The notes under the pieces were generated by a model that saw nothing but the letters and a program-made list of their open reading frames with translations, had not been told where the DNA came from and did no database searches. DNA of 64,000 nucleotides from Chrysogorgia sp. JL179-B06 (Eukaryota; Cnidaria; Anthozoa; Scleralcyonacea; Chrysogorgiidae), in contig JAYKKM010000501.1 of the NCBI GenBank assembly GCA_035772405.1, forward strand, positions 1,416,001 through 1,480,000. The letters are read 5' to 3'. How positions within the stretch are numbered: position 1 is the first letter of the stretch; each line of letters opens with the position of its first letter. Position numbers and translations under genes: made by a program. Shown here piece after piece: positions 7,964 to 61,472 of the stretch.

Positions 7964-8307
7964 TTCTGTGACCTTTTGGCCTCGCTTTTGGCCTCGCTTT
8001 TGGCGGATTCAATATGGCGAGTGGTTTGGAAGAGTCGATATCCCGAGCTGTTCAAGGGGCAATTAGATCCGTATTGTCAGAAACATCAAGCCAGTCATCC
8101 AACGTGCCGACTAGCACGTCGACTTCAAGCTCAACCGTAAATTATGAGGTGAGTTTAATATTGTTATTCATTTTATATTTTCATATGATGACTTGCTATA
8201 GCCACAATCTCGTTCCCACTTAGTCTTCCCACGACTAGGAACGAGATTGCTATAGCGATAAAGATATTAAACTTTGTCTTTATGAATATTTATGAATCTT
8301 TATTTTG
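7964..8307. repeat. Left terminal inverted repeat with exon 1
   Basis: It matches 25120-25425 in inverted orientation from TTCTGTGACCTTTTGGC through exon 1 to the intronic TTTATGAATCTTTATTTT. The left copy has an extra tandem CTCGCTTTTGGC near 7980-8005. The first-exon proteins differ at only two of 45 residues. Confidence 0.8.
8211..8249. repeat. Hairpin in intron 1, present in both TIRs
   Basis: AATCTCGTTCC and GGAACGAGATT form arms around a loop. The right TIR has the same arms at 25182-25206 with a shorter loop, so the hairpin is a shared trait of both ends and its loop has changed. Confidence 0.75.
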
Positions 8308-8381
8308 CATAAAGTTTGTGGGAAGTAGCAGAGAACGGCTTGAGCACTCCACACAAATATCCCCATCGAGCTCAACCGTCA

Positions 8382-9320
8382 ACCAGGTGCGTGTCAGGGT
8401 TGTAGTACACACATCGTATATATATTTATTATATAGTAGGAAATACACAATATCTTCGCTAGTGAAGATATCCATCACGTGTTTAATCGAATTAAACTTT
8501 TATCGTGATGTTTCTATAATATAATAAAAAGAAAATTATAAAGTATTGCTAATTCCCCCACCCCGGGCTGGTGCCATGGATATTTTTGGTTTTTTGACCT
8601 TCATTTGTGACTTTAAGTCTTCATTTTTTGAGACCAAGGGAAAATATTTTTCTATACACACCGACCAAAAACCGTGAATAACATATTAATTTCTGATCAT
8701 GGTTATGTTGTGACATGTTTTCGCCCATTGATTTTCCACAAATTTGTGGCATTTGGATAATGAAATGGCTCCTTCGTAATAATAATAATATTTATACAAT
8801 TACAGGTGCTTAATGCACTGATCCTGTTTATCGTGTAATCACTTTTCCTCTGAATCTATTTTCCTCAGTGCCAAGTAAAATAGTTCATTCAATCAACAGT
8901 ACATTCTTAATTGTAAAAAATATCACTTTCAGACCGTGGTTAGATATCATAAAAACTGCCCGCTCACGTAGCCAATCAAATTGCAGCATTGGCTTAGATT
9001 TCACCCGCTCAGCTCATGATTAACAAAAAAATAAATCTACAGTAAGTTATTTCTTCTGTTTTAAAGTTCACTCATGAGTTATGTGTTTGTAGAGAAAGCT
9101 TCAATGTTTCTTATATTGCAAAAATTCAATTTTTGTGTCTGTTCTGTGACGTCATTTTCCCGCCATAAACCGTTAAAAACAAAAACATACGATTTTTTGT
9201 TAATTAGAGACTAAATAATGCATAAGCATTCAGATTTTGGTTGACTGTAACCTCTGCACAGTGTTTCAAAGTATAAAAAGACCAACAATCAGAAACAGAT
9301 TGTTTTTGATCATTTTTCAG
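8382..9320. other. Intronic AT-rich sequence of integrase 1
   Basis: No coding frame or repeat was recognised beyond a small AAT run near 8780. It lies between the candidate second and third exons. Confidence 0.4.
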
Positions 9321-10703
9321 GTGGCTAGTGATCAATTTGATGATAATGACAACCAAAGGTATGTTAAAAAATATATATTATATTAAATTCTAAAGAACTG
9401 AAATGCATGCCACAAGACGGCGACTCTAAATTATTGTTCTGTTGGTGTTGTGGTGTCATATGACATGATATGTGATCAATAACAGCATTTATAGCAATAT
9501 GGAACAATTTATAGCAACTATATTTTGACCAGGGACACCAGAATTCTGTGGGCGGGTCTGGTCCCTGATAATTTTCTACAGTAATATAATTTTTTCTTGG
9601 TTGTAGGTCTGCTGGACGCCCTCAAAGTTATGTTGGTCGGAATAATATAAAGCCACTACTCGACCTTAAAGTGCCATTAATTGTCATTGCTACAAGATTG
9701 GGTATTTCTCACTCAACCTTGTACAACAAGATAAAAAGTTTTGGACTGGAACTCCCCAAGTTTTACACCGCTACCAAGGAAGAACTAACTGCTCATATCC
9801 AGTCCATTAAGAAGAACCTCATCTTCGTTCTCACGACATGCACGTGCAGCGTGCAAAGGTTCGGGAAACTATTCGCCAGGTTGACCCAGGCCCGGCGCCA
9901 AAAAGCTTTACGTAGGAGGGAGTATAGTGTTCCCTGTCCTCTGTAGTTGTGGCATGTGGATGGGAACCACAAGCTTATCCGATACAGGATCGTCATTCAT
10001 GTTGGTGTTCATGGCTACAGCCGTACTATTGTATTTATTGCTGCTAACGATAATAACAGATCAACCACTGTAGAACGTTTGTTTCTGCAAGCCACCGAGA
10101 CGTATGGATATCCAATTAATGTAAGGACTGATCTTGGCGGTGAAAACGTCTTGGTGTGGAGACATATGAATTCGCATTGGGCCACACAGAGAAGATCGGT
10201 AATCGTGGGTAGCTCAGTTCACAACCAACGGGTGGAGCGATTGAATCGAGACTTGAACGTTAACATCGCCCAGATCTTCGGCCTCAAACTTCAAGAGTTA
10301 GGAGTTTGGTTTACTTGACATAAACAATGAAACTGACATGTTTTGCCTGCATTATGTTTTGCTTCCACGCGTGAAAAAAATAGTGAAGGAATTCGCACAT
10401 GCCCACAATAACCATGGTCTTCGTACAGAAGCTAACCGAACTCCTCTTCAGCTACTGAGCTTGAATTCCCATCTGACCGAACTACACCGAGCAACGATCA
10501 CTTCTGATCCAGATGCAAATGGTGCCGAATCTTCGAACAACTTGTCTGTAGTTGATGTCCCTCGAACACAGTGTCCTCTTACTGATCAAGAGTTTTACGA
10601 ATTACAACAACAAATCAATCCATTGTCGGACATCCCACCGATGGAGATATGCAATACTGTGTTGCAGTTTGTGGGTCCTAAAATGATCGCTCGGCAATTC
10701 TGA

Positions 10704-11690
10704 ACATACTGGTATCCGTTAAAAATCTTCGCTACACTCACACAATCTTAACATGGGTCGCACCACGAAAAACGTTTTTAACTCTGGGCTCGATTTTTTT
10801 GTTCGTAAATAAATGTGCATATTATTATTAATTATATACTCCGAATAGCAGCATCTTGTGCACTCAAGATTTGCGTAATAAACAAAAACAGTGATTTCGA
10901 CTTTTGTATGGCCAAAGGGTTTGACAAAGGTTTGCTATTAGGAGTATGCTTTGTTTCTATTTTTTTAAAATTGTCGACTGGAAATGGTTTCCCACTGTGA
11001 ATGTTATGTGCAAAATTTTACCAAGTTTGCAGTGTTATTACTGTATTAAAGACATATTTCTAGTTAATAAACAAAGCTGTATACTGGCGAGTCTGCTGCA
11101 AATTCTGTACACATTTAACTATTTAAGCACTTTGTACCATGCACGATTTAGGCCAATTCTATAGGAGTCAAGTGCCTAAAGAACGAGGCAACTATATATA
11201 AATACAATTGAGTCGAATGCATAACTCATTAGTATACATTATTTTACTCCGAAACAATAGAAACGCCTAAATCGTGCATCATATGTAGCACTTTATACGA
11301 AACAGAAAAATTGTTGGCGTTGAGCGTTTTCGAAGTAACACAATTTTCATAACTATTTGTACGGTTGTCAGAAACGAATCCGTTGATTGCGAACAATTAA
11401 GACTAACTGCTCCTGCACGTATCTATATTGAACCACAGTTAGAATAGAGAACATAGTCTTAGAAACGAACATAGAAACCAAAACAGGCAATTACTTACAG
11501 CAGTAACAATAACATAATATGTACGATTACGAGGTCATTGGTCTTCATACAATCTAAAGCACATTCTGGGAAACCATGCATAGTTAATATAGCACACATT
11601 TAGGAAATTAAAACGATCACGTTAATGTCTGCATATCAATTATGCCATTCCAAAAAAGGAGAGCAATTATGCCATTCCAAAAAAAGGGGA
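10704..11690. other. Spacer between convergent integrase 1 and HECT 1
   Basis: An AT-rich stretch where the two genes meet tail to tail. An AATAAA-like signal lies near 10806-10812 and another near 10875. It contains the inverted repeat at about 11110-11305 and, near 11640-11690, two copies of TTATGCCATTCCAAAAAA. No gene was recognised. Confidence 0.5.
11110..11305. repeat. Imperfect ~50-bp inverted repeat (MITE-like)
   Basis: GCACGATTTAGGC (about 11142-11154) and GCCTAAATCGTGC (about 11266-11278) form the core of longer imperfect arms that also share an AAGCACTTTGTA-like block and a TCTATAGGAGT/ACTCCGAAACAATAGA-like block. Confidence 0.6.
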
Positions 11691-13801
11691 GTTCATGATT
11701 CAATCGTCCATCATTTCTTTAAATCTCTCAAAATCTTCCACCTTCGTTGGGAGGTACAACACAGTACCACATGTGTTTGCCTTCGGGCGAACATCTTCCC
11801 AAAAACATAAAGTGGGTTGTGGGAAAAATCCCATTGGTGGTATCCGGCTTGCACCAGTGGCAAAGACAAGTATGTCGCATAAAGAGACTTGTGTCAAACC
11901 AGCTACAAAATTTAATAAAGGAAAAAGTAGATTTTAAAAATATCGTATAGTAGCAACCGGAATGGGATTGAAAACACAACAAATTATTTCCTTGTTTCAT
12001 TTGGCCTTTTGGGCATAATTTAAGTACAAGTAACAGTTTGAAGTTTTCATGCATGTCAACAAACGCGATTTATTTTTTAAAGTATATCTTATACCTGTAG
12101 CAACACGTGATAAGTGTTTATTTATACCTTCGCAATTCTGGAGATAGTCCCTCCAATTCATGACAGCGCAGCGTCAAACTGGGGAACAAAGGCTTGGTCG
12201 ATGTTTTCGGATGTGAGCGTGTTTTCCGAATTGCAGAATATTCCCCTGAAGGCAGCAGGATATTTCTGGATTCAAGAATACCAAGTGTTGTAAGGCCCTC
12301 TTTAAACATTTCAATTGCTGTGCGGACTCTGTCCATGACGAAATAATGACACAGTTCTGCAACAAGCTCTTCCCTTTTCTCAAATGTGGGTACACAGTTG
12401 TAGCCACAATTTGACAAATGGTCTTGAACAGATGAAGACCAAATCAACTCCGTAAACTCCTCTTCCTTGTCGACATTCTTTAACTGAGAATGAAAACATA
12501 TTGTTATAAAGATAAGAACTAATACGGTTGATTAGGGAAGACTCAAATCGATTTGGCCCACGCGAAACGTCATATGGACGTTGCGGTTGGCGGGTGTGGG
12601 GCGAGCGTTGAAAATTTCCGACAAAAGGGCTTGGTAAAATGAGCGTGGCTGGCTTATAATCGAATGAAGACGGATAGAAAGTAGCCTGCATAGCAAATGA
12701 AAAAGCTGAATTTTAAACTTTTAGTACATCACTCAGTGCAAATAAATAAATAATGGTAGTAAATAATGGTATTATATGAATCGAGTAAGACACTTAAAAT
12801 ATTTACAAATTGTGCACACAAATATTTGAATAGTAAATAGAATAGTATATGCCATTTTTTCATCATTAAATTAAAACGTCATTGAAAAATTCTTGTTTTT
12901 TCATTTAAAAATGGTTGTTGAAGTTCTCGAATCGAAATATGAGAAACAAGTTCGTGATTGATAGAAATACATGCCAGATTAGAGAGGCAATTTTCGGTCA
13001 TTGTGCTGCGCCGGCCGGGGGCATGCTCCCCCGGAAAATTTTGAAATTAGGGCCTCTGAAATTGCTAGAAATTTTGGGCCTCCATTTTGCTAATATAGCC
13101 TCAAACATCTTTCAATTTTTACATCTTACCTGCTCAAGTGTATGCCGGACATCAGAATGTGCTACTTCGTTTATGGTTGGCTTGCATGCGTGCTCCCCAA
13201 TCCCAATTAAATTGAAAAGACATTCTGCGAGAGAATTGCCAGCTTCTCTCTATCTGCCAGCCCATTTGTATTGGTTATCTCTCCTTGCTAAAAGGTTTTA
13301 AGGTTTAAAAAATTACGTTAAATGTGCAAGTAATCACTGGTCAAACACCATGACTTTTTCGCTAATCAAAACCAAGACGCCCATTACACTGATAAAGTAT
13401 GTTTGTTATTGAACAAGACGCTCTATTGAGCGTGTAGTCGCTGGGGTATCAAATGTAAATCAGCTTTTCATTAGCTGACTATAACATAGATTATATTGCA
13501 AGGAACCATTGCTTCACCTTATTAGTCTTATTATAGTAATATATCCGATGATCAGTGATGAAGTCATGGGGGAATAGAAGTACAAATGTTCCAAGTGAAC
13601 GCAGTAACAGCTTTTGGTCTTATGCAATGCAATTAATACACTTGAACAGATAGGTATTTGCATTTTCGACACAAAAGCCTTTGCATGCTCTTGCATGCAA
13701 GATGTACAGTTGATGTCTTTGGATAACACATATTAGATCTTAAGACTCAACGGCATGCAGCCCTTAATACAAGAATTTCAGTCTTCGATATATTTGTGAG
13801 C

Positions 13802-15902
13802 CAGCCCACTTTATCCTTCCTTTATCAATATATTTTTCACATGATCAAACCTAGTACGGTCGCCATCTTTAATTTATTTCCTAGAGTGCCTTCTTTGATA
13901 AGTCCAAAATTGGAATTTGACTTCAAAACGCCAAGTATATTTATTGCAAAAACGCGCAGAGATGACGTTATTTTCATAAAAAATCACACTGGTTAAGGCA
14001 TACGATATTCTGCAGTATGTATTTGCTTTTCTACACTTCGAACTTCCTTCAGAATTTGCTATATTCCTTCGTAGACCATTAAGACCTATATTTTGCTTAC
14101 ATGAAGTATGTCATTTTGTAACATACGAAATTTGTTTGGAGGGCGCTTAAGCGCCCTGGTTTGGAGAAAAATGTCAACCGAAAGCTACAGTCGTTGTTGC
14201 CCCAATGACTAATAAGCTATATTTTCCATGTCAAGCCTAATGGGACCAGCATTGTCCAAGCCTATCAGACACAATATTAAACTTGTGGCCCAGTAGGCCT
14301 GTATCTATACTGTGGGCCTAACATGTTCTATATACAGTTTGGTTTATTGAATTCAGACCAGCTAGTAAACATGTATGATACATGTTTTATTGAACAGTAC
14401 TAATGTTGTTTAGTGTACTGTAGACACTATATATAGCCAGGCAGTGTAGAAATACAGTTTTAGAATGCAACGAAATGTTAATCCGAATATCAACCAAAAA
14501 AACTATGCTGAAAAGGCATATTTTAAATGTTTATCCAACTCGACCGGAAATCGCAGGTTGAGACGAACGCCCTGTTTATATCTCCTGTCCTAAGACACTT
14601 AAAAGTTGATTACGAAAGGGCCTTCGCTCAACACAGACTCACAGTGTACTATTATTAGCCATCATTTAAGAAAACTAATTTATTTACCTGTATTCGTGTC
14701 CGAGCAAAGTATCCACAGGCATAGATGAAATTTCAAAATAAAACTTGCTTGTCCGTCAATAACTGATCAGTGTTTGTTCAAAACAAACATTACTGCATCT
14801 GCTGATTTTGTCCAGAATACGAGTTGTTTTGATGATCTGGTATTGCAGTTACCAGATCACGCCATATACCATATTCCCCTGTATGTATTTGCTTTTCTAC
14901 ACTTCGAACTTCCTTCAGAATTTACTATATTCCTTCGTAGACTATTAAGACCTATATTTTGCTTACATGAAGTATGTCATTTTGTAACGTACGAAATTTG
15001 TTTGGAGATTGGAGTGGAGAAAGGAGAAAAATGTGAACCGAAACCTATAGTCGCTGTTGCCCCAACGACTAACTAACAAACCAACGAGTTCAACATAAAG
15101 TAGATTTACATAATTTGATTTGCAAATTAAATCTACTTTTAAATTTTGACTCGCAAATTAAAATCTATCCTCCTCCATTGCCGTATTAATTCCCTACAGA
15201 CTGCATTTAACAAATGTAAAAATTGCACTAATTGTTAAGTTGTTTACTCATTTCTAACTTAAAATTCCACTAATTAATTCAAAGCTAAAATACCTCGTTT
15301 CTTTCCTCGCACTTTGCCAACATTGTGCAAATAACTCCACCATTTGATAACTACACCTCACAGCCACAGGCGTTAAGAAATAATACATTACGAAACCTCA
15401 CCAATCATGATATAAGTCGGTTATATACCTCGACCTCGGGATATATGTTGTTTATATAAATAACATAAATCCCTTCCTTCCTTTATCAATATACTTTTCA
15501 CATGTTCAACGGCAAAAAGATAAAACCTGATATTTTCCACTCCTAGTACGGTCGCCATCTTTAATTTATTTCCCAGAGTGCCTATAAGTGCCAAAATTGA
15601 AATTTGACTTCAAAACGCCAAGAATATTTATTGCAAAAAACGCGCAGAGATGACGTTATTTTCATAAAAATCACACTGGTTAAGGCATACGATATTCCCC
15701 TGTATGTATTTGCTTTTCTACACTTCGAACTTCCTTCATAATTTGCTGTATTCCTTCGTAGACTATTAGGACTATATTTTGCTTACATGAAGTATGTCAT
15801 TTTGTAACGTACGAAATTTGTGGAGATTGGAGATTGGAGAAAGGCGAAAGGAGAAAAATGTCAACCGAAACGTATAGTCGTTGTTGCCCCAACGACTAAT
15901 AA
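13802..15902. repeat. Dispersed repeat in three direct copies (two ~420 bp, one partial)
   Basis: The segment at about 13802-14221 recurs at about 15476-15902; both contain GTACGGTCGCCATCTTTAAT, GCGCAGAGATGACGTTATTT and TGTATTTGCTTTTCTACACT. A third copy of only the right half lies at about 14876-15072. The copies contain no recognised gene. They occupy the HECT 1 intron where an N-lobe exon would be expected. Confidence 0.75.
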
Positions 15903-16602
15903 AGTAAAGATAAATATCGTAAGCGTGATTCATTAGTGTAACGAAGCAAGTCTGGTACACGCAAGTGATAAAATCAATTGCAGAACGAATGCACAGGACG
16001 ATGCATCTCTTCAAAGGTCCAATGCATTGAGCATTATAATCTACTCCATTCAATCCCCATCCGTCACAGAGGTAAACATGTACCAAAAATTGACAGTGTA
16101 ATCAGACCTTAAAAGAATTAGGAAATAAAATAAGAGATGAGTATTCATGGCTCAGTGCAAAAAAATGTCAGTACACCTTAAAGTGCACTGTACATCACAC
16201 CATCTTGGCCGCCAAGAGAAATTGTGGGCCCCTGATGCTGTCACACGGGTCGATTTGGGGACCCTGATTTTGGGGGCCCTGATGTCACACGTCATAGATC
16301 ACGTCTACTGTTCTCAATTGCTCTCCTGGCTCGGCTAGAAACGAAGAAAGTATTACTGACTTTGACGCTTAACAGCATAAACACAAATCTCAAAAATTTT
16401 ATGGCGTCCTTCTGAAATTGGGGGCCTGGGGAATATTGCCCCCAATTAATACCCTCTTTCGGTGTATATACTGCACCTTTTGCATTGGGTACTATGACTC
16501 TGTTCCCTGGTTCTCCAGCAAACATTGACGACTCGAAAAGTTCACGAACAGACAGACGTAAAAATTCGCGAGTAGGACCACCAAGGTCGACAGCACCTTC
16601 AC

Positions 16603-16772
16603 TGTAATGTTCTTTATGTTAACTTTTGTATCTTATTTACAGAAACTGTCAATCTCAATCTAAGTCCTTCTCCTCTTCCTTACTCTCTAGTGTGTCCTTC
16701 TCACGTGCTCTCTAGTTCCTTATATGGAGTCTAGTATTCATTATGTTACTTACATAAAGTATCATCATTATA
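16603..16772 (-). repeat. 3' LTR of the gypsy element
   Basis: 170 bp, identical by eye to 20844-21013. Read on the minus strand it runs from TATAATG to CATTACA, so the ends are an imperfect inverted pair and not the canonical TG..CA. Confidence 0.9.
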
Positions 16773-16837
16773 TTACTCCCCTTTGTTTTTCTAAAACAAA
16801 ACATTAACTATTTAGCTAAATGTTATATCAAGAGAGT

Positions 16838-19395
16838 TTATGAACAAATGTTATGTCCATATCTTTCTGGCTGCTTTCGGTTCCTTTCAGATCTTCGTAC
16901 TGGTCCAGGTGTCGGACCATTACCATCATGGTTTTCGTTGCTGTTGCCATTGTTATGTTGGTTGTGTGATGTTACATCGTCCTCGCCGTCCTCGGACATG
17001 TTGTCCTTGTCTGACGTGTGCGTTCGTGGTATTTCTTTGCAGTGTGAAACATTTCGTCTCATTACATGTCCGTCCTTGTTTATGGCAGTTATCTCACTGT
17101 TGTTCCTACACGTTACAGTATAAGGTGTTGTACTGAAATTAGGTGTTAATTTATTTTGTTTTTGTTGGCGTATCAGTACACAGTCTCCAACTTGAATTCC
17201 ACTCTTCTTGCAGTGCCGTCTTGTATCCGCATATTGTTTATTGTACTTTTGCTTCCTGTCCTCGTTTTTTTTTCGCTTCCCTATGACGATTAACCACCCT
17301 TTGTTTCTTCAAAATTGGCAGCTTGCCTTGGACAGTGCGGTTGAAAAGCAGTTCTGCTGGTGACACACCCGTGGTACTGTGTGGCGTGGTACGATATTGC
17401 AACAAGAATCTTTGCAACTCTTGTCGCCAGGGACGGCCTTCAATCTTGGCAGTCTTTAGGGCTTTGCCAAGAGGCTGCATGAAACGTTCTACAGGTGCAT
17501 TGCCCTGTGGCCACTTTGGGGTGGAAAATTCGGCCGTAATTCCCAAGGTTTGTAAATATCGATAATATTCTTCCCCATTAAATCGTGGACCATTATCAGA
17601 TCTGATGGTGGTTGGGATACCATGCAGCACAAATATTTTGTCTAATTTGGGAATCACCACAGAAGCTTTGGTGGACCCAACTATTTCGACTTCTGGGAAT
17701 CTTGAATAACGATCAAGTACAACTAATAAGTACTCAACGGTTGGAAGTGGTCCGTAAAAATCAATGTTTAATGTTTCCCATTGACGCTCTGGCAACTGAG
17801 TCATTGCAAGTGGTTCAGCGCGGTTGGGACGTCCTACAGCCTGGCAGGTTACACATTGTTCAAGCGTGTTCTTGACTATGTTGTCTAGCTGAGGAAACCA
17901 TATTTTTTCTCGAACTAGTGCTTTTGTTTTTTGCAGCCCAAGGTGAGCTTCGTGTGCGATATCTACTGCTCTCTGCTGGAGGCTTTTGGGTATTACTATT
18001 CGAGTTCCCCGTAGAATTAGTCCTTGAGAAGTAACCGAAAGTTCGTCTTTGACTGTCTTATATTCTTTTACTACATGGGAATCCCATTTGTTGAGCTTGA
18101 TTGCAGCCCGGAGTCCCTTTAGCGTATCATCGGAGTTTGTTGCCTTCTGTATCTCTTCCAATGTCATGGCCCTAGGAATACTGGAATTCACAACAAAGTT
18201 CATATACTCTTCAGTCATTTTCTCTTGTTTACTGGTACTTCTCGCTGTGGGGTGTCTAGATAAATAGTCGGCGGGATTTTCTGCTCCAGATTTATAAACA
18301 ATGTGAAAGTGATAAGGCTGTAATCTTAAAATCCAGCGTTCAATGCGTGCTGATGCTTTCGCAGTTCGTTGGCCATAAATAACTTCCAATGGTTTGTGGT
18401 CAGTGACCAAGGTAAAATCACTACCGTACAGAAATAGATGAAAATGTTCCACGGACCAAACAATCGCAAGGGCCTCCTTCTCGGTTTGGGAATAGCGCTT
18501 TTCTGGCTCAGTTAGAGCTCGGCTTGCATAAGCGATTATTTTCTGAGCATCTGTGCCAGGTGTCTTTTGTGATAAAATAGCCGAAATCCCCACAGGACTC
18601 GCATCAACCACTACATAGGTATCCTTGTCCTTATCAAAATAGGCCATACATGGGGAAGAGGCTAATGCAGTCGTAAGTTTTTTAAAACTGTCCTCGTGAT
18701 TTGCATTCCATTCAAATTTTGTGTTCTTTTTGGTCAACTCGCGTAGTGGTGCTGTTAATGTGGCAAAGTCTAGGATATACTGGCTGCTGTAATTAGCCAT
18801 GCCAAGTAAACTTCTCACGTCACTAACAGTTGAGGGCTTGGGTGCATGAAGAAGGTCACTAACTCGCTTCGGGTCAGGTTTCGTACCGTCCTTCGAGAAA
18901 ATTTGCCCAAAGAATTCTAATGTGTTGCTGAGGAAAACCCATTTGTCGCGATTGAGTTTCAACCCTTTCTTTGACAATCGACGTAGGCATTTGTCCAGAT
19001 TGTCATCGTGTTCAGCACGAGTAGTCCCAAAGACAATGATATCATCGGCAATGTTCTTTACGCCGTGTAAGCCTTGTAACTCTCGCTGCAACACATGCTG
19101 AAATATTTCGGTAGACGCATTGGTCCCATAGTTTAGGCGCTTGTACCTAAACAGTCCAATATGTGTGCTAAAAGTAGTGACATATCTACTCTGTTCGTGG
19201 GAAAGATCGAGTTTCGTAAAGTATTTGGCTCCATTCAGCTCGCAACTGACGTCATTCACAGTTGGTATCGGGTGTCTAACTCGCTGAATTGCCTCGTTCG
19301 CCTGGCGCATGTCAACACATATTCGTATACTGTTGTCCTTTTTCGGGACTGCTACAATTGGGGAGACCCAAGGCGTCGCTTGGTCTTCACGAACC
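16838..19395 (-). CDS. Gypsy pol: reverse transcriptase, RNase H, integrase, basic C-tail
   Basis: The main frame (690 codons, 19310-17238) shows RT (KYFTKLDLSHEQSRY; active site IADDIIVFG), RNase H (VVDASPVGISAILSQ, LVTDHKPL), an integrase H2C2 finger (HEAHLGLQKT..WFPQL..CVTCQ) and the DDE core (LNIDFYGPLP, SDNGPRF, PVERFMQ). The usual aromatic residue in Y/F-x-DD is Ala here. Upstream, the frame changes near 19390 from the gag/protease frame. Downstream, an A-run at about 17262-17270 shifts frame; the reading then continues to a stop at 16838 with an end containing RRSERNRKQPERY, a common gypsy pol tail. The product would copy RNA into DNA and integrate it. Confidence 0.88.
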
Positions 19396-20818
19396 TTGTT
19401 TCTCCAACTCTTCTAAAGCGGTTTTAACTTTGTCCCGAATATGGTATGGAATTCTACGCTGGGGCTGTACTTTCGGTGTTTTGCTTTTGTCAATGTCTAA
19501 CTTTACGCTATCGCCCTTTAACTTTCCGAGACCATTGAATACATTCGCACGCTTCGAGAGAATGTTATCTAATGCCGTATCATTCGTTGATATTTTATTC
19601 AAATGAAGGGTAATTAGTGCCAGATCTTGTGCTGTTGACAGCGATAACAAATTACCCGAGTTTTGACCTTTCACAACATAGAAGGTCGCCACTGAGACTC
19701 TCTTACGTGTCTCGACTATAGCTTCAAACTTTCCCACAAATTCGACTGGTGTCGCTTGATTGTACGCAAATGCTTTTGTCCTTGTCGATTTCAGGGTAAT
19801 TCCGTTCAATTTCGAGTAAGTCTGTTCATCAATGACATTAATACTTGCACCAGTATCAACCGTTGTGTAAAACGACGCTCCACCGACTGTCACGCGAACT
19901 TTCGCATTGTTTTTCTTTTCGGTCTGTACTTCATATAAGTATGTCTCATCAGAATCAGAACTTGAACTCTGGCATTCATCCCTTTGAAGAGGTTTTACTG
20001 ACGTGTTATACGTGCGATTTGTCTTGCGAGGTGTATAAGCGGGTAGTTTTGCTGAACTTCGACAAACGTTGGCGAAATGATTTGCTTTCCCGCAATTGTT
20101 GCATGTTTTTCCTGTGGCCGGGCAACGACTTTCATGAGGAAATGCGCGTCCACAATTACGACATGTTTGCGCTGTAGGTTGCTCAGGTTTCGTGAAAAGT
20201 TTATTGGTTTCTTCGTTACAATGGACTTCCTTTGATTCGATGTCTTTCGCCTGATATGTACTTCGTTCGTCACGTCTACCGTCCAATAACATAGCTTTAA
20301 GATCAAAGTTGGGATCCCGCAATGCCCGTTTACGGATTTTCGACGAAGTTCCCCCAATGATTATTTGTTGTTCGATTTCAAAGTCGGCATTGTCGAATTC
20401 GCATGACAGCTAGAGTTCTCAGTCTCGTGTGAAAATTGTCCAAAGTCTCATTTGGTGCTTGACCTGACTGGCGAAATCGATAAACTTCGTAGTGTCGGTT
20501 CTTTTGAGGGTCAAAGTACTCCTTCAACTTTTGCTTCGCGGTGTCATATGCATCGTCAGCGCCAGTATTTGGGAGTTGTCGGAAAATTTCTTGTACGCTA
20601 GAACCAGCTTGATAAAGTAGAAGAGTCCTTTTTCGTGTCGCATTTGTGATCCCCGTGGCTAGTATAAATATTTCGAAGTCCGATTGCCATTTATCCCAAC
20701 GTGTAGCGAGGCTTGTGCCCACTTGTGCTTCGGGTCTAAATTCAGGCATAGGCTGAATAGATACTGGGATTGGTGGACTTGCTTGTACAACATTTGGCCC
20801 TGGAGCTGGTTCCTCCAT
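19387..20818 (-). CDS. Gypsy gag with zinc knuckles, fused to aspartic protease
   Basis: ATG at 20818 opens a capsid-like region (RWDKWQSDFEIFI, YFDPQKNRHYEVYRFRQ). Near 20400 the frame changes by one and continues with two Cys knuckles (CRNCGRAF..H..RC and CNNCGKANHFANVC, about 20180-20060) and a protease motif TTVDTGASINVIDE (about 19870). The region ends at 19387 just before the RT. The knuckles would bind RNA; the protease cleaves the polyprotein. The frame change is more likely a mutation or an indel error than programmed shifting, because no slippery heptamer is obvious. Confidence 0.85.
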
Positions 20819-20843
20819 AACTACACTTTATCCTCGTCGCCAA

Positions 20844-21013
20844 TGTAATGTTCTTTATGTTAACTTTTGTATCTTATTTACAGAAACTGTCAATCTCAAT
20901 CTAAGTCCTTCTCCTCTTCCTTACTCTCTAGTGTGTCCTTCTCACGTGCTCTCTAGTTCCTTATATGGAGTCTAGTATTCATTATGTTACTTACATAAAG
21001 TATCATCATTATA
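20844..21013 (-). repeat. 5' LTR of the gypsy element
   Basis: 170 bp, followed on the minus strand by the primer-binding-like site and the gag start. Its outer edge abuts the TTCAC duplication inside a HECT exon. Confidence 0.9.
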
Positions 21014-24820: not shown

Positions 24821-25119
24821 CTCATATAAATATAGGGAAAGATCCCACCATTCATCTTGAACACTGACCGAAACACACTCGAAATTTCCTCTTTCACTTG
24901 AGCCTCCGACCACGTCGTATAAAAGGACACTTCCCACTAGCCCTTTCTCTGCAAGGCGCCCTCTGTGATTACCACGAGGGATAGCTTCCATTTCTTCATC
25001 GCTCGGGGGAAGACAAACAATGTCCTTGGTAACTTGCCGGCTTCTGCCACTGTAGCACGTTGTTGTTTTTTGCCGGCGGTAAACTCCTTGACCGACTTGC
25101 TCCACCAAATATGGAGGGC

Positions 25120-26005: not shown

Positions 26006-26170
26006 CTAAATGTCTCAAGTGGCCATATGAATGCTCACCACAAATTAAACAATTCCCCTCTACCCTCTCCCATACCTATAAATGAACTTACATGATTATT
26101 TAATCTCATCCGGAAAGGTGTCATGCACATAAATTTCTATAATTAATTGCCAAAACCTGTTTCTGTTCAG

Positions 26171-50300: not shown

Positions 50301-53164
50301 GTTTCTATAACGTATCTAAACACGGGAAGATGTTTTCTATTTCTTTTATAAAATAAAACTGAGGAAATAAGTAATAAGACTCTTTTATTAAACTTTTATT
50401 CTCCTTACTCATGCTAGACAGCGTCGTTGGTGCTCAACTGTGAAGAAAAGCACCCAATCTTCTTGTTTTTCTTCTTCGCACAAAAGAAATTCAGTTTCGC
50501 GCAAAAAAATGTGCACATTATTGGACAAAATACAAGTGATTTTAGTATTTTTGTTTGTACTCCTCTTTTTGAATACATAACTTTTGGGGCACAGTGACCC
50601 TTACTGATTTTACTGATTTTGAATTTGAATATCATAAGCAAAATTTCTTTATTACTTTTTTATTCTTAGATCATTGATTTGGTAGATGATGCTGTTATCA
50701 TCAGCACAATAGATTTGGATGAATACCGGGTGGCCCAAAAAAAAGTACTCCGGTTTGATTCATAATACTTCTAAACGAGTGAAGCTATTAAACTGAAATA
50801 ACTTTCATTAGATAGAGGGAAGACTAGCTTAGATTTTGATATATTACAGTTGTATTTTACTTACAAATTCACGGAGATATTAATGTTCAAAATAGGTAGC
50901 ATATTTCTGGATGTGTCTAAAATATGCAAAAAACGCCGTATCAAATACTTAATGTTGGATGTCTCTGGGGAGTTGCATGTTATGTCTTATGGAGTTATGG
51001 TTTGATTGTGTTTCATTCTGAGTTTATTCTGAACATGAACAAATTTGGAATGTACCACATGATCAGCAACCGCAGAATTTAGAAGAGCTTCGCAACTCAA
51101 TTGTGACAGCATGCCGTAATCTAGAACAACGAATGATCCATGACTCCTTCGACGCAATGGTGTCACGGGCTAGGCAGTGCATTCGTGCTAGAGGACACGC
51201 GATTCCGAACGAATAAATCTTGCTTGTATTTTGTAAATAATAATACTTCGTTTCATAATAAACAATTTGTCAAGTGTCATTTATTTACTGCTAATAGTGC
51301 GTGTTTCAGTTGAGCAAAGCTTGATTAATATTTGATACGGCGTTTTTTGCATATTTTAGACACATCCAGAAATATGCTACCGAGTTTGAACATTAATATC
51401 TCCGTGAATTTTTAAGTAAAATACAACTGTCATATTTCAAAATCTAAGTTAGTCTTCCCTCTATCTAATGAAAGTTATTTCAGTTTAATAGCTTCACTCG
51501 TTTAGAAGTTATTATGAATCAAACCGGAGTACTTTTTTTTGGGCCACCCGGTATCTGGAAACCAAATTCATCCCATATGTAAAAGACGTCTATACAGGAT
51601 CTTCCACTGGTCCAGACAAAATTAATTCGTTGATGACGGCCATCAATACTATCCAGTTAAAGAAGACGAGTATTGTCGAGGTGTGTTCAAAATTCAAATG
51701 TTCAGTATAACCGTTTGACAATACTTAATAGGATATAAATAAAACATAATTTTCTCAAAATCTATTTCAGGTTTCTGGTTGGTTAAAATGCAAAGCAGAT
51801 TGCAGACAATCGATTTATGGAGATACAATCCATATGAACATGGCAAAAGCCCAGGAATATCCACATAAAGGGGGAGTTACAATAAATAGAGCAATAAAAG
51901 CAGCTATTTCTGTAATTCCTGGTTCTAATTTGAAATTCAGATCCTGTTTTGTGGGTGGAAACCAGGATCCGTGTGTAACGATTCCCAGACGTGCATTAGA
52001 AGTTAATGTTCTGAATGTAAAGAATATACTACTTCTTTTATTTTAGTCTTTGCTATTAGTATTGAACCGCATGAAGAAGCAACAGCCACAATTACTGAAC
52101 CAGGGGAAGTGGAACAACTGCAGCGGGAACTTCATGCCACACAAACGTTTGTGCAGGAGATGGAAACGAAGCAAGAAAGGCAAAGTCAAGAGATGAAGGT
52201 CTTGGAGAAACGTTGCTCTGCAGAAGTGTCAACTAAAGATAACATTATAAGAAATTTGAAACAGCAATTGGACGAAGCGTGTCAAAAACCAAAAGTGTCA
52301 GAGAGAGAAACACAGACAGATAGGTTACCTGGTACAACTAATGCAGTTGCTGCTGCAACATTGAGTGCTTTAGTGGTTGAAGGTAGGTGTTGTATTTTAT
52401 TATTAAAAAAGGAAATTTGCATGTTGAGATTGAAAGCCAAAAAGCTAAAGGTTTCAAATACCGAGTAGAGCTCTAGCGTAGAACAAGAAACGCTTTAGTT
52501 TTGTATGTAAATATATGGCCGAATCAATAAAAAATTACCTGTAGATCATTCAAAAAGCACTGACATACATAGAAAATGCTTTTATAGTTTGCCAATATAT
52601 TATCATTTGACATATGAAATACAACGACTTCTCCTATTAGATTCAAGAACATGTGTGTGGAATTGGGAAAACAATATGCATGTAAATGCTTCCTTGAAAT
52701 TGCTGGTGAGGTTCAACACATCTGAATTTAGCATGGCTAAATTACAGGCACACTAGTACAACGAGAACCACCAATGGGTTATGTGGGAACGGGTCAATAC
52801 CCTTCCTTTACATTTACTGGCCACAAAACACATTATTTCTCCAAAGTAACTGTAAATACATGTACATCGTTTTCACGGTCCTTGAAAATTCTGAAAAGTC
52901 CTTCAATTTGCAAAAAAGTAATTATATGCCTGAAAAGGATAGTTTTTGAGAATCAATAAAAGTCTAGTCAAATTGTGTAATTTTCTTCCATTTACTTAGC
53001 ATATCTTAATTTCATTATTTTTTTATTTTAAATCTTTTTGTGTTGGTTCTAAAGCATCATCTCCACCAACTACAACTAAAATCCACTTGGAAGATGGACT
53101 TAGTGAGACCTTTCGTCCAACCAAAGAAAAAAGACAATGTAAACAGCGTCAGGCTAATGCATGA
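41377..53164 (+). CDS. Multi-exon P-loop NTPase gene with coiled-coil C-terminus, family unknown
   Basis: Exons seen: 41377-41567 (ATG, ends VERRDGVK, donor GTAAGT); 42405-42570 (YPYIVTIKSCKNYDD); about 44152-44400 (MAPAYLKGMQ..FHHHEVLNVL, donor GTAAGT); 49331-49634 (MAVGNPSSGKST Walker A, TVPVCWDDPTHP Walker B-like, LLTVNFSLDDDM); 49796-50040 (SFERTAPIWFEKM); 50670-50725 plus 51554-51680, split by a mariner element; 51771-52016; 52047-52382 (coiled coil, QQLDEACQ); 53055-53164, ending TGA. Phases agree at 41567/42405, 44400/49331, 49634/49796 and 52382/53055; one frame slip lies near 49928 and the 52016/52047 junction does not match. The ATP site resembles AAA/SF3-like or DUF927-like helicase ATPases, but I cannot name the family. 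A 4.9-kb intron carries nested mobile elements. Confidence 0.65.
43548..43646. repeat. Long hairpin, ~40-bp arms
   Basis: TTGTCTATGAGCGAATAGTC and its reverse complement lie on either side of a short TCAGGCTTCGCCTTC loop; outer arms CAATTAGACAACTCG and its partner extend the stem with small mismatched bulges. It lies in an intron of the NTPase gene. Confidence 0.8.
43647..43815. mobile_element. Palindromic MITE copy A
   Basis: Starts TATAGAAACACGAG, contains GGAAGTTTGGGAGAACGAGA and ends in ATTTCTTTTATAAAATAA. The same element occurs at 50159-50356. It is partly diverged on its right half. Confidence 0.7.
44605..45515 (+). pseudogene. Penelope-like element: reverse transcriptase pieces
   Basis: Plus-strand pieces in several frames: an N-terminal block with LAKGLKFVPTPGPIDLFSV and SFFRRMRLEAL (about 44620-44735), the RT block GTKMGPSYANLFVGYVE (about 44790-44840), FHPVLKFTWEISE (about 44970), YKPTDS (about 45080), and a thumb region RLRRLCSGNQDFQAKAMEMR to FFRRNKNIRDSLVQRE (45157-45510). 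This order is that of Penelope-like RTs of the Neptune/Poseidon type. The RT centre is partly deleted. The reading is cut at about 45515 where the third integrase/HECT unit begins; the matching GIY-YIG part resumes near 48440. Confidence 0.8.
45947..47334 (+). CDS. Integrase 3: HTH + DDE integrase (IS3EU-like), nearly intact
   Basis: ATG at 45947 inside AAGATGGCGGATAA. A 50-codon first exon ends at a GTAAGA at 46097; the next block starts near 46144, giving either a 47-bp intron or a one-base slip. The main part opens GTPGRPSYNITQDQLQ, then a helix-turn-helix (GQIAELLLVSKRTIERRLAE). The catalytic core follows: LWNYDGNHKLIRWR (D113 counting from 46255), VRSDRGGEN (D170) and HNQRIERLWRD (E205), with 34 residues between D170 and E205. 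The C-terminal region has WIRHPLSSEQNQTPLQLW and ends at a TGA at 47334. The 359-codon frame is uninterrupted, so this is the best preserved integrase here. Its 3' end points at HECT 3, 540 bp away. Confidence 0.85.
47335..47870. other. Spacer between convergent integrase 3 and HECT 3
   Basis: AT-rich, no gene. Candidate 3' signals (AATAAA-like) for the integrase are not distinct. Confidence 0.45.
47871..48412 (-). CDS. HECT 3: C-terminal part of a HECT ubiquitin ligase
   Basis: The minus-strand reading starts near 48412 after a CAG acceptor-like site and gives RDEMVASLLKQC, FFQGLNSIGNIG, then (after a frame change near 48190-48165, in an AAAAGAGGGAGAAAG run) EKEDSTIYYFELFLQDLEEG, LEDLLVFTTGADCVPPLGFD and the C-lobe ACPYASTCGLYFFLP-like block (CPYASTC, likely catalytic Cys), ending LLDCHGFGKG and a stop near 47874. 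The 'LL-F-TGA--VPP-GF' and 'STC---LP' blocks are standard HECT C-lobe marks. Upstream exons of the ligase are missing; Penelope-like sequence lies there instead. Confidence 0.8.
48430..48765 (+). pseudogene. Penelope-like element: GIY-YIG endonuclease
   Basis: Plus strand: after a decayed Cys-rich lead (about 48450-48510) the frame reads KIYIGETGRRL (GIY-YIG motif), FAEHLRSVRDNDVDKLVAP, NSSNHLVSDMKVCAIL and RKRQEKRLIFKLGTTHPLGL, ending NERFSFI and a TAA. A catalytic-type Arg (GRR) and a Glu (QEKRLI) are present. This is the C-terminal nuclease of Penelope-like elements and probably belongs with the RT at 44605-45515, the two being split by the third integrase/HECT unit. One frame change is near 48500. 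Confidence 0.8.
49081..49125 (+). ncRNA. Decayed hammerhead-like tail of the Penelope-like element
   Basis: About 320 bp past the nuclease stop the sequence CTCTGATGATGGGTTCAGCTC followed by ATGTC occupies the place where Penelope-like elements carry a hammerhead ribozyme (box CTGATGA, stem, GAAAC). The second box is not intact here, so self-cleavage is not expected. Tentative. Confidence 0.25.
50159..50356. mobile_element. Palindromic MITE copy B
   Basis: Ends AAATAGAAAACATTTTCTGT and ATGTTTTCTATTT are inverted; inner arms TATAGAAACACGAGTGGAAG and ACTTTTACGAGTGTTTCTATA-type are also inverted. It matches copy A at 43647-43815. It lies in the NTPase intron between 50040 and 50670. Confidence 0.7.
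50724..51553 (+). mobile_element. Mariner/Tc1-type element, 826 bp, ~225-bp TIRs, TA duplication, inside an exon
   Basis: TA at 50724-50725 and 51552-51553 flank a unit beginning CCGGGTGGCCCAAAAAAAAG and ending in its inverse. The inverted repeats match over about 225 bp with few differences. The centre keeps only the last 60 codons of a transposase (51033-51216). The frame of the interrupted NTPase exon continues across the insert when the element and one TA are left out. Confidence 0.9.
51033..51216 (+). pseudogene. Mariner-type transposase, C-terminal remnant
   Basis: The frame reads QNLEELRNSIVTACRNLEQ and MIHDSFDAMVSRARQCIRAR, ending PNE and a TAA. The pattern 'P-L-EL---I-----------A---M--R---CI-A-G-HF' is the usual end of mariner-type transposases. 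All catalytic residues lie in the missing upstream part, so the element depends on another copy for movement. Confidence 0.7.
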
Positions 53165-56607: not shown

Positions 56608-58057
56608 CTATTTATTTCCTGCAGTATAATGATCCTTGCTGAGTTTTGGTAGAACAGCGTTCTTGTTTTGTTTATAACACCTCTCTGTATAGGCATTGCG
56701 CCTTTTGATAGACCGATGTAAATAAAATAAATGGTGAAGTCGTTGCATTGCACAGACTATATTCTTCATTCGACTTGCCCACACAAATGTCTGCTCGGCA
56801 GCCATTGAGTTGAACTCTTTTGGTACTTTTCCATCAGGGTTATAGTCCTTCTTGCACCTTGGATCTTTGTGATTTCTCAAGTGCAATCGGTCAATCACTT
56901 TACCAAAATCCTTCCATGCAGTATTTAGTGGTGCTGGGAGTGGCAAATCTTGCTTACAAATTTTCATATTGTCAACATGGCACATATTGTCATAAAACAA
57001 GGTTGACTTAATTGCCATGGTAACCTTCTCATTCGAACCATTGGCCAGCATGGGCTTGAATTTCAACAGGAGCCATGACATGAAAATAACAAAAGCGTGA
57101 GTCAGAGATTCAGACCTGAAAATAATTAAATGAAAAAAATTAATTTTAATTGACTAAAATGTAAAATAGTTAAGTCATACTTAGTGACTTATAATATGTC
57201 ATCCTAACTTTTTGCCTATTTTGGTCAGAGTGTGAATAATCCATTCAGAAATTATTCATATGTTAATGACTGACCTGTATAGAGGCTGGAAGTACTCAAT
57301 AATCCATCCACATAGATCCTCTAGACCAACTTTGCAACGTTTTCTTTCCTCCAGTGTCTTTATTACAAAATATTTATCCAACTTGGTCACTATTGTCACC
57401 ATCAATGACATCATGATGTTTTTCAAAATAACAAATAACAGCTTTAATTACAATTATTAATCACAGTACGAAACTGTTAGTCCCCAAAATATATATAACC
57501 CAAAATATATATAACTGGCTTTTTTTATTAGGCACGTGTAAATTCCAGAGGCATAGGGTGTTTGACACCAAGAGTGGTGGGTCATTATGCTTGATTGCTA
57601 CAGTGTAAGAAAAATCTGGTGAAGTTGGGGGTACTTGACAAATTGCCTTCCTTCGGGAGTTATGTATATATTATTTTTAAACTGCACATTGCTACAGTAC
57701 CACATACATGTAATATTTACTGTTTAAGAAAATAGAAAATGGCTGCCTGTGTTTATATAGCCTGAAGCGAACATGAGAGTGAATGGGATAACACAGGGCA
57801 TCCAATCTCTTTTATGAAATAAGACTAAGAAATGTGCCATGACATCACAACCGTGTTTGCATAGCATGATATAAACCCGGTTGACCGGCATGCAACCTAT
57901 TTTATAAATATTTAATCATTAGTACACACTAATTTTTTTTTTACCATACATGTATTACCTTGAAAGGTTGTTACATTTGCAGGACTAGATTTAGTAGATT
58001 CTGACAACTTGTCAAGCTGTTGCTCCACTTTGTCATGGCTTCTTAATACCATTCCTT
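56608..58057 (-). CDS. KDZ-like transposase C-terminal exons
   Basis: Minus-strand exons: about 58057-57960 (RSHDKVEQQLDKLSESTKSS, donor CAAG-GTAATA), about 57418-57273 (TKLDKYFVIKTLEERKRC..FQPLYR, donor GTCAGT), and 57115-56608 (after TTTTCAG). The last exon has FYDNMCHVDNMK, IDRLHLRNHKDPRCKKDYNP, NSMAAEQTFVWASRMKNI and LHRSIKRRNAY, ending at a stop at 56608. The run 'DN-CH..D..H-RNH..C...YNP..N---AEQ----R' is what I know as the RNase-H-fold part of KDZ-type (Kyakuja/Dileera/Zisupton) transposases. Upstream exons with the first catalytic acid were not identified. Confidence 0.55.
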
Positions 58058-59922
58058 AATCATCAATAAAAATGTTGTCAGTAATATATTGCTAGTTAAT
58101 ACAGTAGAGTTCTGTAGTGTTTCCTATGATTTTTTACAATCACACGTTGACCACAATCACACGTTGTCCACAATCACATATAATAATATTGACTTTAATA
58201 TAAAACTTTTTATTACTATATGAACTGCTGGTAACTTCTGCATTCACTATAATAATTAGGTTTTGAGATTGTCATATGATAATGATCATTGTAGTGATCT
58301 TGATTGGTAATGAAATTGGTATTTCATGGTTATGGTAATGATAATTGTGGTTTTCACAATGCATTACGAACAAACTATATTATCAATTGAGCATGCTGCC
58401 AGCTTGGCATTCTGGTCATGGAAGTGATAGAGAGCGAGTCTGCTGTAATAAAGAAAGATCAGTTGATTGTATTGTATTGTATTGTATCGAAGATGTGGAA
58501 AGAAATTATGTTTTTAGCACGGCAACTTCATTTTGCTTATATGCTCGCGTTGCTCACATGAGTTTCATCGAGAAATTGGAAGAAAGGAGAACGGTATTAC
58601 TGTATGATATAGATGACGAGGAGGTTCAGCGACTTCAACAGATGCCATATCCACTTTGTGTAAATGTTCAATCTTGCTGTGATTTCAGTGTTTTTTAAAT
58701 ATACAGTGTATGTAAAATATACTTGACTGTTAGTGTGTTCTTGACTGAGCTTGTGTTAAAATAGTATTATATAAAAGACTGTGTGAACGATTCATTGTTT
58801 CTGGACGCGCTTTATTTAAATTAAATTATGTATAAAAATAGATTATCACCGAGCACATATATTGAGATGTATTCACCGATTTTCTGCGTTTGTTTGTTTG
58901 TTTCATTTGTATAGCGTAGTGAGCGCACTCCATTTTAAATATGAATATTATAACATTTCAGCAACGAGATATACATTTGTCCTTGTAAACACATTAAACT
59001 CTGTTTACTTACTGCGAATATTTATCATCTTTAAATATTTCAGTTTTTACACGACGGCGAAAAACGTGATAGTTCTTATAGCCAAGTTCACCAAATTTCC
59101 GTCGGTTATAATTGAACCAATCCAGCCTACTGATTCGTATGTAGATGACATCTTTGATCGTCTCTTGGGGCATGTTGATGTAGAAATTCACAGAAAGGCC
59201 AATAGAAATTGTAATTTGGGCAGAATGCCCATGGTATTCAACCTGAGCCTTGGGTGAGAATAATACAGAAGTAGGCGAATAAAGTGAAGACAGTACTTGG
59301 AAGGGTGATCCCCTGACGTCCTTCGTACCAGGAGATCACGTTTGGTGGTCAGTTCAAGGGATGGATCTTAACCTGGATCCAAGTACCGTTATTCGCCCCA
59401 GGCCCCATCACTGGGCTACGGCTTGCCAACATCCAAAATGTTAAGTAAAAGGTGAACGCAGATGTTAAGTGAGGTTATGCAATAACCAAGGTTAACAGCT
59501 AGGTAACAGCGCGTGGTGCAAGACCGAGGGCATAGTCAAGGGAGAATGGACCGGTTGAGTAACATCATTGTTGTGCCGACAAGGTAGGAATCGGACACGA
59601 GATTGTTGGAGTCCGAGGAAAATAGCGCTCCCACCTTCCCTCCCTTTACTCAAGAATATAATTAATTACTTTCCACCAATTTATTGGTGTGACCGGTGCA
59701 AGCTATACCAAGAGGGGGTAGGGGCTGGTGGTCAGTTCAAGATCGGGTTGCTTCTTATATGCTATCTCATCCAAGGCGTGGCCCAGGGAGAGGTAGCATG
59801 ATTACAGGTACAGTACACCCATATAATTTTGTACTATTTAAAATTGTGCAAATGGCAAAGGTTTGTTAAGAGTTAATTTGAATGGAAAATTAATTTATTC
59901 TTTCATATGTTTCTTTATTTAG
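58058..59922. other. Mostly non-coding; short open frames and small direct repeats
   Basis: An ATTGT pentamer run lies at about 58467-58487. A 46-codon frame from the ATG at 58559 (MSFIEKLEERRTVLLYDIDD) could be a first exon but lacks a donor. TGGTGGTCAGTTCAAG occurs at about 59345 and again at about 59728. Nothing can be assigned. Confidence 0.35.
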
Positions 59923-60840
59923 GGAGAAGTACACATAACCAAAGGATAGAGAGACTTTGGCGAGATTTGTTTAGCGGATGCCTGAGCCTTTTCTATGACC
60001 TCGTTTATCATATGGAAAACCAAAGCGTGCTACACCCAGACAGTGAACACCACTTGGTGTTTACATTATGTTTTTTGCCTATAATTAACAGGCATATAAG
60101 GAATTGGAAGAATGCATGGGTAAACCATCCACTGCGCACTGAGAAGAACAAAACTCCAATTCAATTATGGGTAACTGGATTACAATCAGCTGGAATCTTT
60201 CAAGGTTATGATGATGAAATCGTACAGGTACATGCAATAAACGTATAGTGTGCTGCGTAGGCAATGTTAAGATACAAATCTAAATATAAAAAGGTTGTTG
60301 AACTGCCTATATACGGATAGTGATGTCTAACGTTTCGAGCGTGGGCCCTTCATCAGATGAAAACCAACTACATGAACATGTACTGATAGAGCAGGTTACC
60401 ATACTGTCATTGGATGATTTGTTTGGTGCAGGATCACCAAAACTTTGTGTCATAAATGCAAAGGACTATGGGATCAACTGGGGTACTAATTTGTTTTTGA
60501 TACTGTGCATGTGCATAGAAATATACATGTGCATAGAAACATACATGTGCATAGAAACATACTGTGCAATGCAAGGAACTTGTAACCAGCTACTGTACTC
60601 TTGACTTCCATTGTTATTTTAATGTAGTACCGTAATGTAATTTTCTTCCTCAAGGGCGATGTTAACATCTATGGTGTTGACTGGCATGGTCCAATTCCTG
60701 AATCATGTACAGATGTAGTTCAGGTTGCAGAAGTACCATGTCCATTTAATGCAGACAGACTAACTACTCTTCCACAAACTATGAATATGACTTATCTAGA
60801 AGGCATTGATGCATTTAACAACCTGGTTACATTAGTATGA
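59923..60840 (+). pseudogene. Integrase 4: C-terminal exons only
   Basis: Exon 59923-60227 (acceptor TTTATTTAG, donor CAG-GTACAT) starts just before the catalytic Glu: RSTHNQRIERLWRDLFSGCL, then MENQSVLHPDSEHHLVF and WVNHPLRTEKNKTPIQLW. The last exon, 60656-60840 (after CTCAAG), reads IYGVDWHGPIPES and ends NNLVTLV with a TGA. Both blocks match the region after the core in integrases 1-3. The exons for the HTH and the two catalytic Asp residues are absent from the 5' side, so the copy is truncated on its outer side. It converges on HECT 4. Confidence 0.75.
60318..60365 (-). ncRNA. Hammerhead ribozyme-like core
   Basis: On the minus strand CTGATGA (60356-60350) is followed by A, a 4-bp stem GGGC/GCTC with a CCAC loop (60348-60337), and GAAAC (60336-60332). 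That is the conserved hammerhead core in the order expected for Penelope-like elements, which are known to carry it. The short stem III and the closing stem I are weak by eye. It lies in the intron of integrase 4. Confidence 0.45.
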
Positions 60841-61240
60841 AACAGAGGGCATTGCAATATGATATTACACTAGATCAATCACACATGTATACTTAGTTTC
60901 ACATTATATTAGTAAATTGTTTTTTGATATGGTTATGGAAATAATGTAAAACAACATGAGCAATAAACATGAATAGCTCAATCTTTAATTTTTTACAACT
61001 TATAATAAATATATATACACTGTTCAATAGTGATATATAACACTGTTGTACTTGTAAACACTGAAGCCATTTTTCCCCACAATATTTTAGTCCTTGTAGT
61101 GGATAAGCCTTTTCTGGCAACATGAACAGAACAAAACAGATAAAACATAACAAAGGCAAGCTCTGTTGCAATTGTTATTGGTAACACCAAAATAATAAAC
61201 AAATAAAACAACTGAGAAATTGCACTACAGTACGTACGTA

Positions 61241-61472
61241 CATCATACGAAGCTAAATCCTCGTGACCCAAACTTCATAGCTATGTCCATATTCTGTTTG
61301 AATGATTGGTAGTCTGAATGTTTTGTAGGCAGTCTGATTGATCCGAAACAGGTCTCTGATAATGGAAGATCATTAACCCCATCATCAAACTTGACCAATA
61401 GTTTTCCATTCTTGCCTCTGACTCTGTTCCCGCCAGTCCAAAAGCTCAAAAGATCTAACATTTGAGCACCGT
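61241..61472 (-). pseudogene. HECT 4: C-lobe exon of a HECT ligase
   Basis: After a TTTTCATAG acceptor (minus strand, exon start 61472) the frame reads DGAQMLDLLSFWTGGNRV, then KLLVKFDDGVNDLPLSETCF and GSIRLPTKHSDYQSFKQNMD, ending FGSRGFSFV and a TGA near 61241. 'LL-FWTG', 'LP-S-TCF--I-LP' and the C-terminal aromatic end are HECT C-lobe marks; the Cys in SETCF is the likely catalytic residue. Only this last exon is present; upstream (to the right) lie a foldback and an L1-like element. It converges on integrase 4, 400 bp away. Confidence 0.75.

Follow-up and report, generated by a model that had tools for sequence, protein, structure and literature searches.

IS3EU/GingerRoot DNA transposons are characterized by TA..TA (sometimes TG..CA) termini, 6-bp target duplications, and the lack of an HHCC domain (PMC10045372), and they are the closest named kind to the elements described here. 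These elements lie in a 64,000-nucleotide stretch of the genome of the anthozoan Chrysogorgia sp. JL179-B06 (contig JAYKKM010000501.1, forward-strand positions 1,416,001–1,480,000), termed the window, in which genes for an integrase and a HECT ubiquitin ligase occur together four times (copies 1–4; all coordinates are window positions). Fungal TET+ IS3EU elements of rusts carry a TET/JBP dioxygenase, read as a way to evade silencing by methylation, along with an alpha-kinase gene oriented against the transposase (PMC12730594); the likeness to the elements in the window is that of a multi-gene element combining a transposase with an oppositely oriented enzyme gene, and the differences lie in the fungal host, in the enzymes (alpha-kinase, TET/JBP), and in a main text where "HECT" and "ubiquitin" occur 0 times (PMC12730594). 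Kolobok elements are likewise DDE transposons, and their lineages can be told apart by an accessory enzyme peculiar to each (exonuclease, RecQ helicase, His-Me nuclease; PMC9587614), but they belong to another transposase superfamily, and "ubiquitin" and "HECT" occur 0 times in the main text of that paper. A literature search found no paper pairing "IS3EU" with "HECT"; Repbase entries might still describe a HECT gene.

The four loci are probably decayed copies, from distant lineages, of an IS3EU/GingerRoot-like DNA transposon whose standard genes are a convergent integrase and HECT ligase. At all four, an integrase with domain PF24764 (rva_4) is found with a HECT C-lobe, and the two genes meet tail to tail, with 3′ ends 0.4–1.5 kb apart (gaps of ~0.95, 1.4, 0.55, and 0.4 kb in copies 1–4), which bears out the four convergent pairs of the original prediction. 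PF24764 is matched with E-values of 2e-78 in copy 3, 3e-61 in copy 2, 2e-38 in copy 1 (core piece), and 2e-30 in copy 4 (C-terminal part only). The HECT domain PF00632 is over its cut-off in copies 1, 3, and 4 (E 3e-5, 6e-8, and 2e-7), in copy 1 barely so (24.1 vs. 23.9 bits), and under it in copy 2, the weakest of the four HECTs (E 0.0017). The Thr-Cys (T-C) motif of the catalytic site, which had been described as conserved throughout, is indeed kept in 4/4 C-lobes, with the Cys codons of copies 1–4 at 11769–11771 (−), 28163–28165 (+), 47976–47978 (−), and 61348–61350 (−).

When the window was searched by tblastn (11 HECT and 8 integrase queries, all picked among copy 3 relatives; threshold 28 bits), no additional integrase or HECT copy scored above 28 bits, and pairing is complete among the copies found (4/4 integrases, 4/4 HECTs); because all queries were relatives of copy 3, very distant window copies could escape this search. 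Random placement of four integrase and four HECT genes on random strands gave four convergent pairs within 1.5 kb in 0 of 2,000,000 trials, and two or more such pairs in 17,910 of 2,000,000. The finding was selected because pairs had been noticed, so that evidence from outside the window counts for more.

Four copies inside 64 kb could also have come from one locus multiplied by local duplication in a single event. This is very unlikely, given that integrases 1 to 4 are mutually just 32–46% identical, a distance in keeping with the original description of the copies as far apart in sequence; that the copy 3 integrase is far nearer to copies in other genomes (reaching 72% within the matrix of nine pairs, and 79% to the database protein P0003) than to its window neighbours; that DNA matches between pairs consist of only two short stretches of the integrase core, 53 and 120 bases long; and that gene order in copy 2 is reversed relative to the other pairs.

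In copy 1 a single pair of inverted repeats (left, 7964–8306, +; right, 25122–25425, −) encloses both the integrase and HECT genes, together with a later Gypsy insertion. The repeats align as ungapped blocks of 177 nt (98%), 73 nt (97%), and 50 nt (82%) (7964–8306 vs. 25425–25122), or at 92% over 312 columns with gaps, with an extra outer exact match of 17 nt; their outer end is TTCTGTGACC at both ends. Each contains an ATG, a 45-codon open reading frame (ORF), and a splice donor (GAG/GTGAGT) in the reading direction of the adjoining gene: the ORF of the left repeat (8014–8148, +), proposed as exon 1, reads toward the integrase and that of the right repeat (25265–25399, −) toward HECT, and the two peptides differ at 2 residues. 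The left repeat thus comprises the exon-1 ORF, the donor, and part of intron 1, the repeat ending inside the would-be intron. Because a start codon, ORF, and donor are present at both ends, integrase and ligase may have an identical starting peptide; as predicted from this one copy, transcription of the two genes may begin at twin promoters, with a first exon in common. The donor is in phase 0, while the first recognizable integrase exon requires two bases ahead of it; one or more further exons would therefore have to lie between them.

The integrase gene of copy 1 (9590–10703, +) encodes a helix-turn-helix (HTH) region and the PF24764 core with the catalytic D, D, and E kept, and is disrupted by a stop at 9944–9946, with a change of reading frame near 10.3 kb. 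The HECT gene is proposed to span 11660–25399 (−), beginning with the repeat ORF at 25399–25265 and continuing with N-lobe pieces at 21208–21023 and 16600–16415, a piece at 12489–12280, and the C-lobe at 11897–11676. Its N-lobe exon is split by a Gypsy long terminal repeat (LTR) retrotransposon (16603–21013, −, with a pol ORF) that is not part of the transposon and is young, with LTRs 99.4% alike and, by eye, a 5-bp target duplication, TTCAC. Additional HECT pieces like those of database protein P0143, near 25.0 and 23.7 kb, are collinear, yet they match at chance level (E 1.2 and 4.7) and were rejected. Three bases within the repeat end TGTGACC..GGTCACA can be read, but it has no target duplication; a search for exact duplications of 5–9 bp flanking ends with at least 7/12 matching bases gave nine candidates that just reached this threshold (7/12), a single 6-bp duplication (7703/25881) plus eight of 5 bp. 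None was at the outer repeat edge, and they were taken as chance.

Outside the window, a protein search with integrase 3 returned 3,998 relatives, the best 120 of which were compared (117 usable in the contig comparison), and one with the HECT3 fragment returned 28. Named integrase 3 relatives among the matches listed come from octocorals, stony corals, a sea anemone, sponges, and fish; one further gene model is, from its naming style, presumably that of a jellyfish. For 5/28 HECT clusters the longest contig is identical in size to that of one of the 117 listed integrase clusters, at 422,679 (P0123/P0018), 232,778 (P0126/P0006), 128,226 (P0133/P0012), 27,746 (P0130/P0009), and 3,946 bases (P0139/P0014). 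When contig sizes were shifted up or down by 1–200 bases (400 offsets), the mean number of matches was 0.15 and the maximum 2, vs. the five observed; among HECT contigs >10 kb, 4/14 matched vs. a control mean of 0.0025. To judge from equal contig size, integrase and HECT very probably have contigs in common in other genomes, and the 3,946-base contig, if that match is real, carries both genes side by side. Since the same two genes seem to be together in other genomes, this kind of transposon appears to have the ligase as its regular second gene.

The two genes also appear to share their history. Integrase and HECT identities are correlated in Mantel tests, both for the five linked pairs with copy 3 (r 0.88; 3/720 permutations as good) and for all nine pairs, the other three window copies being added (r 0.92; 3/20,000 as good). 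Six-taxon maximum-likelihood trees of copy 3 together with the five linked pairs have identical topology for integrase and HECT, with ultrafast bootstrap supports of 100/77/100 and 100/83/100; when the fragmentary copies 1, 2, and 4 are included, supports drop to 24–91 and 37–92 and the placement of copy 1 differs between the proteins, which makes these larger trees uninformative. No relative of either protein was found among IMG/VR contigs. Among GTDB genome contigs, the integrase is present on two (L001 and L002) in the Cycloclasticus symbiont assembly LWTN01, which are probably sponge-host DNA left in the bacterial record.

The integrase has a DDE integrase-type PF24764 core with an HTH-like region ahead of it, and a domain scan gave no match to an N-terminal HHCC zinc domain. 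The predicted model of P0003 (mean predicted local distance difference test score, pLDDT, 83) consists of a helical N-terminal domain, helices including the HTH region, and the core; among 30 sequences its catalytic residues D218 and D275 are invariant and E310 nearly so, and simple patterns for catalytic motifs 1, 2, and 3 are present in 97, 117, and 114 of the best 120 of the 3,998 integrases. In the PDB the model matches retroviral intasomes, IstA, and TnsB (E 8e-7 to 3e-5), and the integrase sequence profile has no match there. The name IS3EU is used for PF24764 proteins. Points of likeness are a DDE transposase lacking HHCC with its first catalytic Asp 100–300 residues in (D218 in P0003), as in IS3EU/GingerRoot, the HTH-like region ahead of the core, and inverted terminal repeats, here in copy 1 only; points of difference are that TA..TA termini with 6-bp duplications were not found at copy 1 and that "hect" and "ubiquitin" occur 0 times in the main text of PMC10045372. 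As the IS3EU termini and duplication were not found in copy 1, the element is not filed as an IS3EU member but only as one that works like it.

The predicted model of HECT relative P0123 matches the structures of RSP5, SMURF1, NEDD4-2, and HUWE1 (E 4e-8 to 1e-7) over ~350–430 columns, and by sequence profile the proteins nearest to the ligase are AREL1, RSP5, HUWE1, TOM1, and E6AP. The catalytic T-C precedes LPR in 25/28 relatives, which, with an N-lobe and a C-lobe bearing the catalytic Cys, qualify as predicted HECT E3 ligases. A ubiquitin-interacting motif was considered and rejected, PF02809 being under its cut-off in the 1/5 scanned relatives where it appeared (E 0.12). The ORF of the copy 1 repeats had no match among the 28 HECT proteins, the 120 database integrases, and two window integrases, and a comparison of the same HECT proteins with the same integrases revealed no common N-terminus (best E 0.004, not N-terminal).

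Two of the 28 HECT3 relatives, P0134 of Dendronephthya and P0150 of Holothuria, are annotated as G2/M phase-specific E3 ubiquitin-protein ligase (G2E3), as would be expected if the HECTs were host genes of G2E3 type near which integrase elements insert by chance or preference. True G2E3 has PHD/RING fingers. The relatives differ in carrying, by precomputed Pfam, PF00632 alone (27/28) or nothing (P0135), and no PHD domain was detected in the eight scanned. The window pairs, moreover, are always convergent and close, integrase and HECT co-evolve by Mantel test and trees, and the HECT gene of copy 1 lies inside the inverted repeats, all of which makes a host origin of this kind extremely unlikely.

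In copy 2 a weak HECT remnant (26147–28275, +) retains an N-lobe at 26153–26296, where collinear matches to relatives run from 26126–26153 to 26233–26296 (E 0.001 to 0.025), and a C-lobe at 28061–28234 that also matches relatives (E 0.007 and 0.008). Its integrase (29689–31065, −) is nearly whole and keeps D, D, and E; at the stop at 30022–30024 matching residues can be found, by eye, in another frame. The N-terminus of this integrase (30828–31065) resembles a SAM domain (PF00536 E 0.15, not significant), and database protein P0098 starts alike; integrase N-terminal regions seem to differ among subfamilies. The copy 3 integrase (45947–47334, +) is nearly whole and keeps D, D, and E, its reading frame changing once near 46.15 kb; the C-terminal 200 amino acids of HECT3 (47877–48478, −), with a frame change at 48185, are 80% identical to P0123, and no N-terminal half of HECT3 was detected. 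Copy 4 comprises an integrase remnant (59741–60837, +) with the third catalytic residue and C-terminus only, the portion with the first two catalytic Asp not being found, and a HECT remnant (61246–61512, −) limited to the C-lobe. Two matches were considered as element ends and rejected: 43.5–43.8/50.2–50.35 kb is a palindromic short repeat that occurs in both orientations, and the second arm of 25.85–26.0/29.24–29.4 kb sits between the copy 2 genes.

Several observations weigh against a transposon with two standard genes. Every window copy is broken and none is intact, a feature absent from the original prediction; local and whole-window inverted searches gave no terminal repeats for copies 2–4; and at the copy 1 repeats there are no TA..TA ends and no convincing target duplication, of 6 bp or otherwise, nor does exon 1 splice directly and in phase onto the first recognizable integrase exon. 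Beyond the window, the contigs shared by the two genes are deduced from equal size; the 3,946-base match alone could be chance; 23/28 HECT relatives have no partner among the best 120 of the 3,998 integrases; and the sponge-host contigs L001 and L002 carry no HECT (L001 ends 1.1 kb past the integrase match, ~0.5 kb past the apparent last exon by eye, and L002 60 bases past the match). As to the ligase, the template modelling (TM) scores of the P0123 model to solved HECTs are modest (0.33–0.47 by query length, in the matches listed), its catalytic loop has pLDDT <50 while the N-lobe is well predicted, P0148 and P0149 have TR and TS for TC, and P0147 stops before the Cys. From their sequences, P0148 and P0149 may be either decayed copies or ligases lacking transfer activity.

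Transposons can acquire host genes, and a Cys missing in 2/28 relatives together with breakage of all window copies would also suit a HECT that hitchhikes as a passenger and gives no help to transposition. This is unlikely: the congruent trees, the persistence of the convergent layout among integrases just 32–46% identical, and the T-C retained in 25/28 relatives together suggest long selection inside the element. That the ligase belongs to the transposon is supported by the copy 1 repeats that enclose both genes, the recurrence of the pair elsewhere as judged by equal contig size, the congruent trees, and the conserved T-C. The earlier proposal that the ligase is a working part of a transposon is thus partly supported, as regards its belonging to the element.

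Other features of the window include a pair of LINE-like ORFs (long interspersed nuclear element) upstream of the HECT4 remnant (61940–64000), the first encoding a gag-like protein with CCHC knuckles and PF00098 in three stretches and the second, endonuclease-like by eye, running off the window end; an 832-bp element at 50723–51554 with ~230-bp inverted arms 97% alike, which looks like a foldback or miniature inverted-repeat transposable element; and minisatellite arrays at 36960–37655 and 40430–40850 with spacings of 54–107 and 21 bases. A minus-strand ORF at 56611–57153 is reminiscent of a Kyakuja/Dileera/Zisupton-type transposase and has no significant Pfam match. The window DNA as a whole is eukaryotic, AT-rich, and rich in transposable elements.

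In the mechanism proposed for the two-gene transposon, the integrase would bind the element ends and insert them by retroviral-type strand transfer, and the ligase would use its conserved Cys to pass ubiquitin to some protein by which transposition is limited. The strand-transfer complexes made by integrases of this fold are very stable, and in certain transposition systems, such as that of Mu transposase and ClpX, clearing them takes a protein remodelling step. The putative substrate could be the stable integrase–DNA complex, which would be tagged and cleared to allow gap repair by the host, or, with about equal odds, a host silencing or repair factor that blocks the element. A common starting peptide, if present, would bring integrase and ligase to the same place.

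A ligase carried by the transposon and aimed at a host defence or repair protein is a substantial possibility, though not the favoured one; it differs from the preferred reading by substrate only, and the odds of the two overlap. Viruses often use ubiquitin ligases to counter the defences of their hosts. Nothing in the sequence indicates a host target, and the possible common N-terminal ORF in copy 1 would point rather to a partner of both proteins; for a host target speak the fungal IS3EU elements with their TET/JBP, linked to escape from methylation silencing, and opposite alpha-kinase (PMC12730594).

More tentatively, the four copies might represent a widespread animal transposon lineage that has carried HECT since before its subfamilies split, and in which the repeats of at least one subfamily act as twin promoters and first exon, giving both proteins the same peptide and delivering them to the same complex. 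If the ligase is indeed the second gene of the element, this would be a DNA transposon bringing its own ubiquitin ligase, and the need for ubiquitin-driven removal of a transposase or host silencer in transposition would become directly testable. At least some of the animal genes that bear the annotation "G2/M phase-specific E3 ubiquitin-protein ligase-like" would then be transposon genes, and the expansion of ubiquitin ligase families in animal genomes could have been overcounted.

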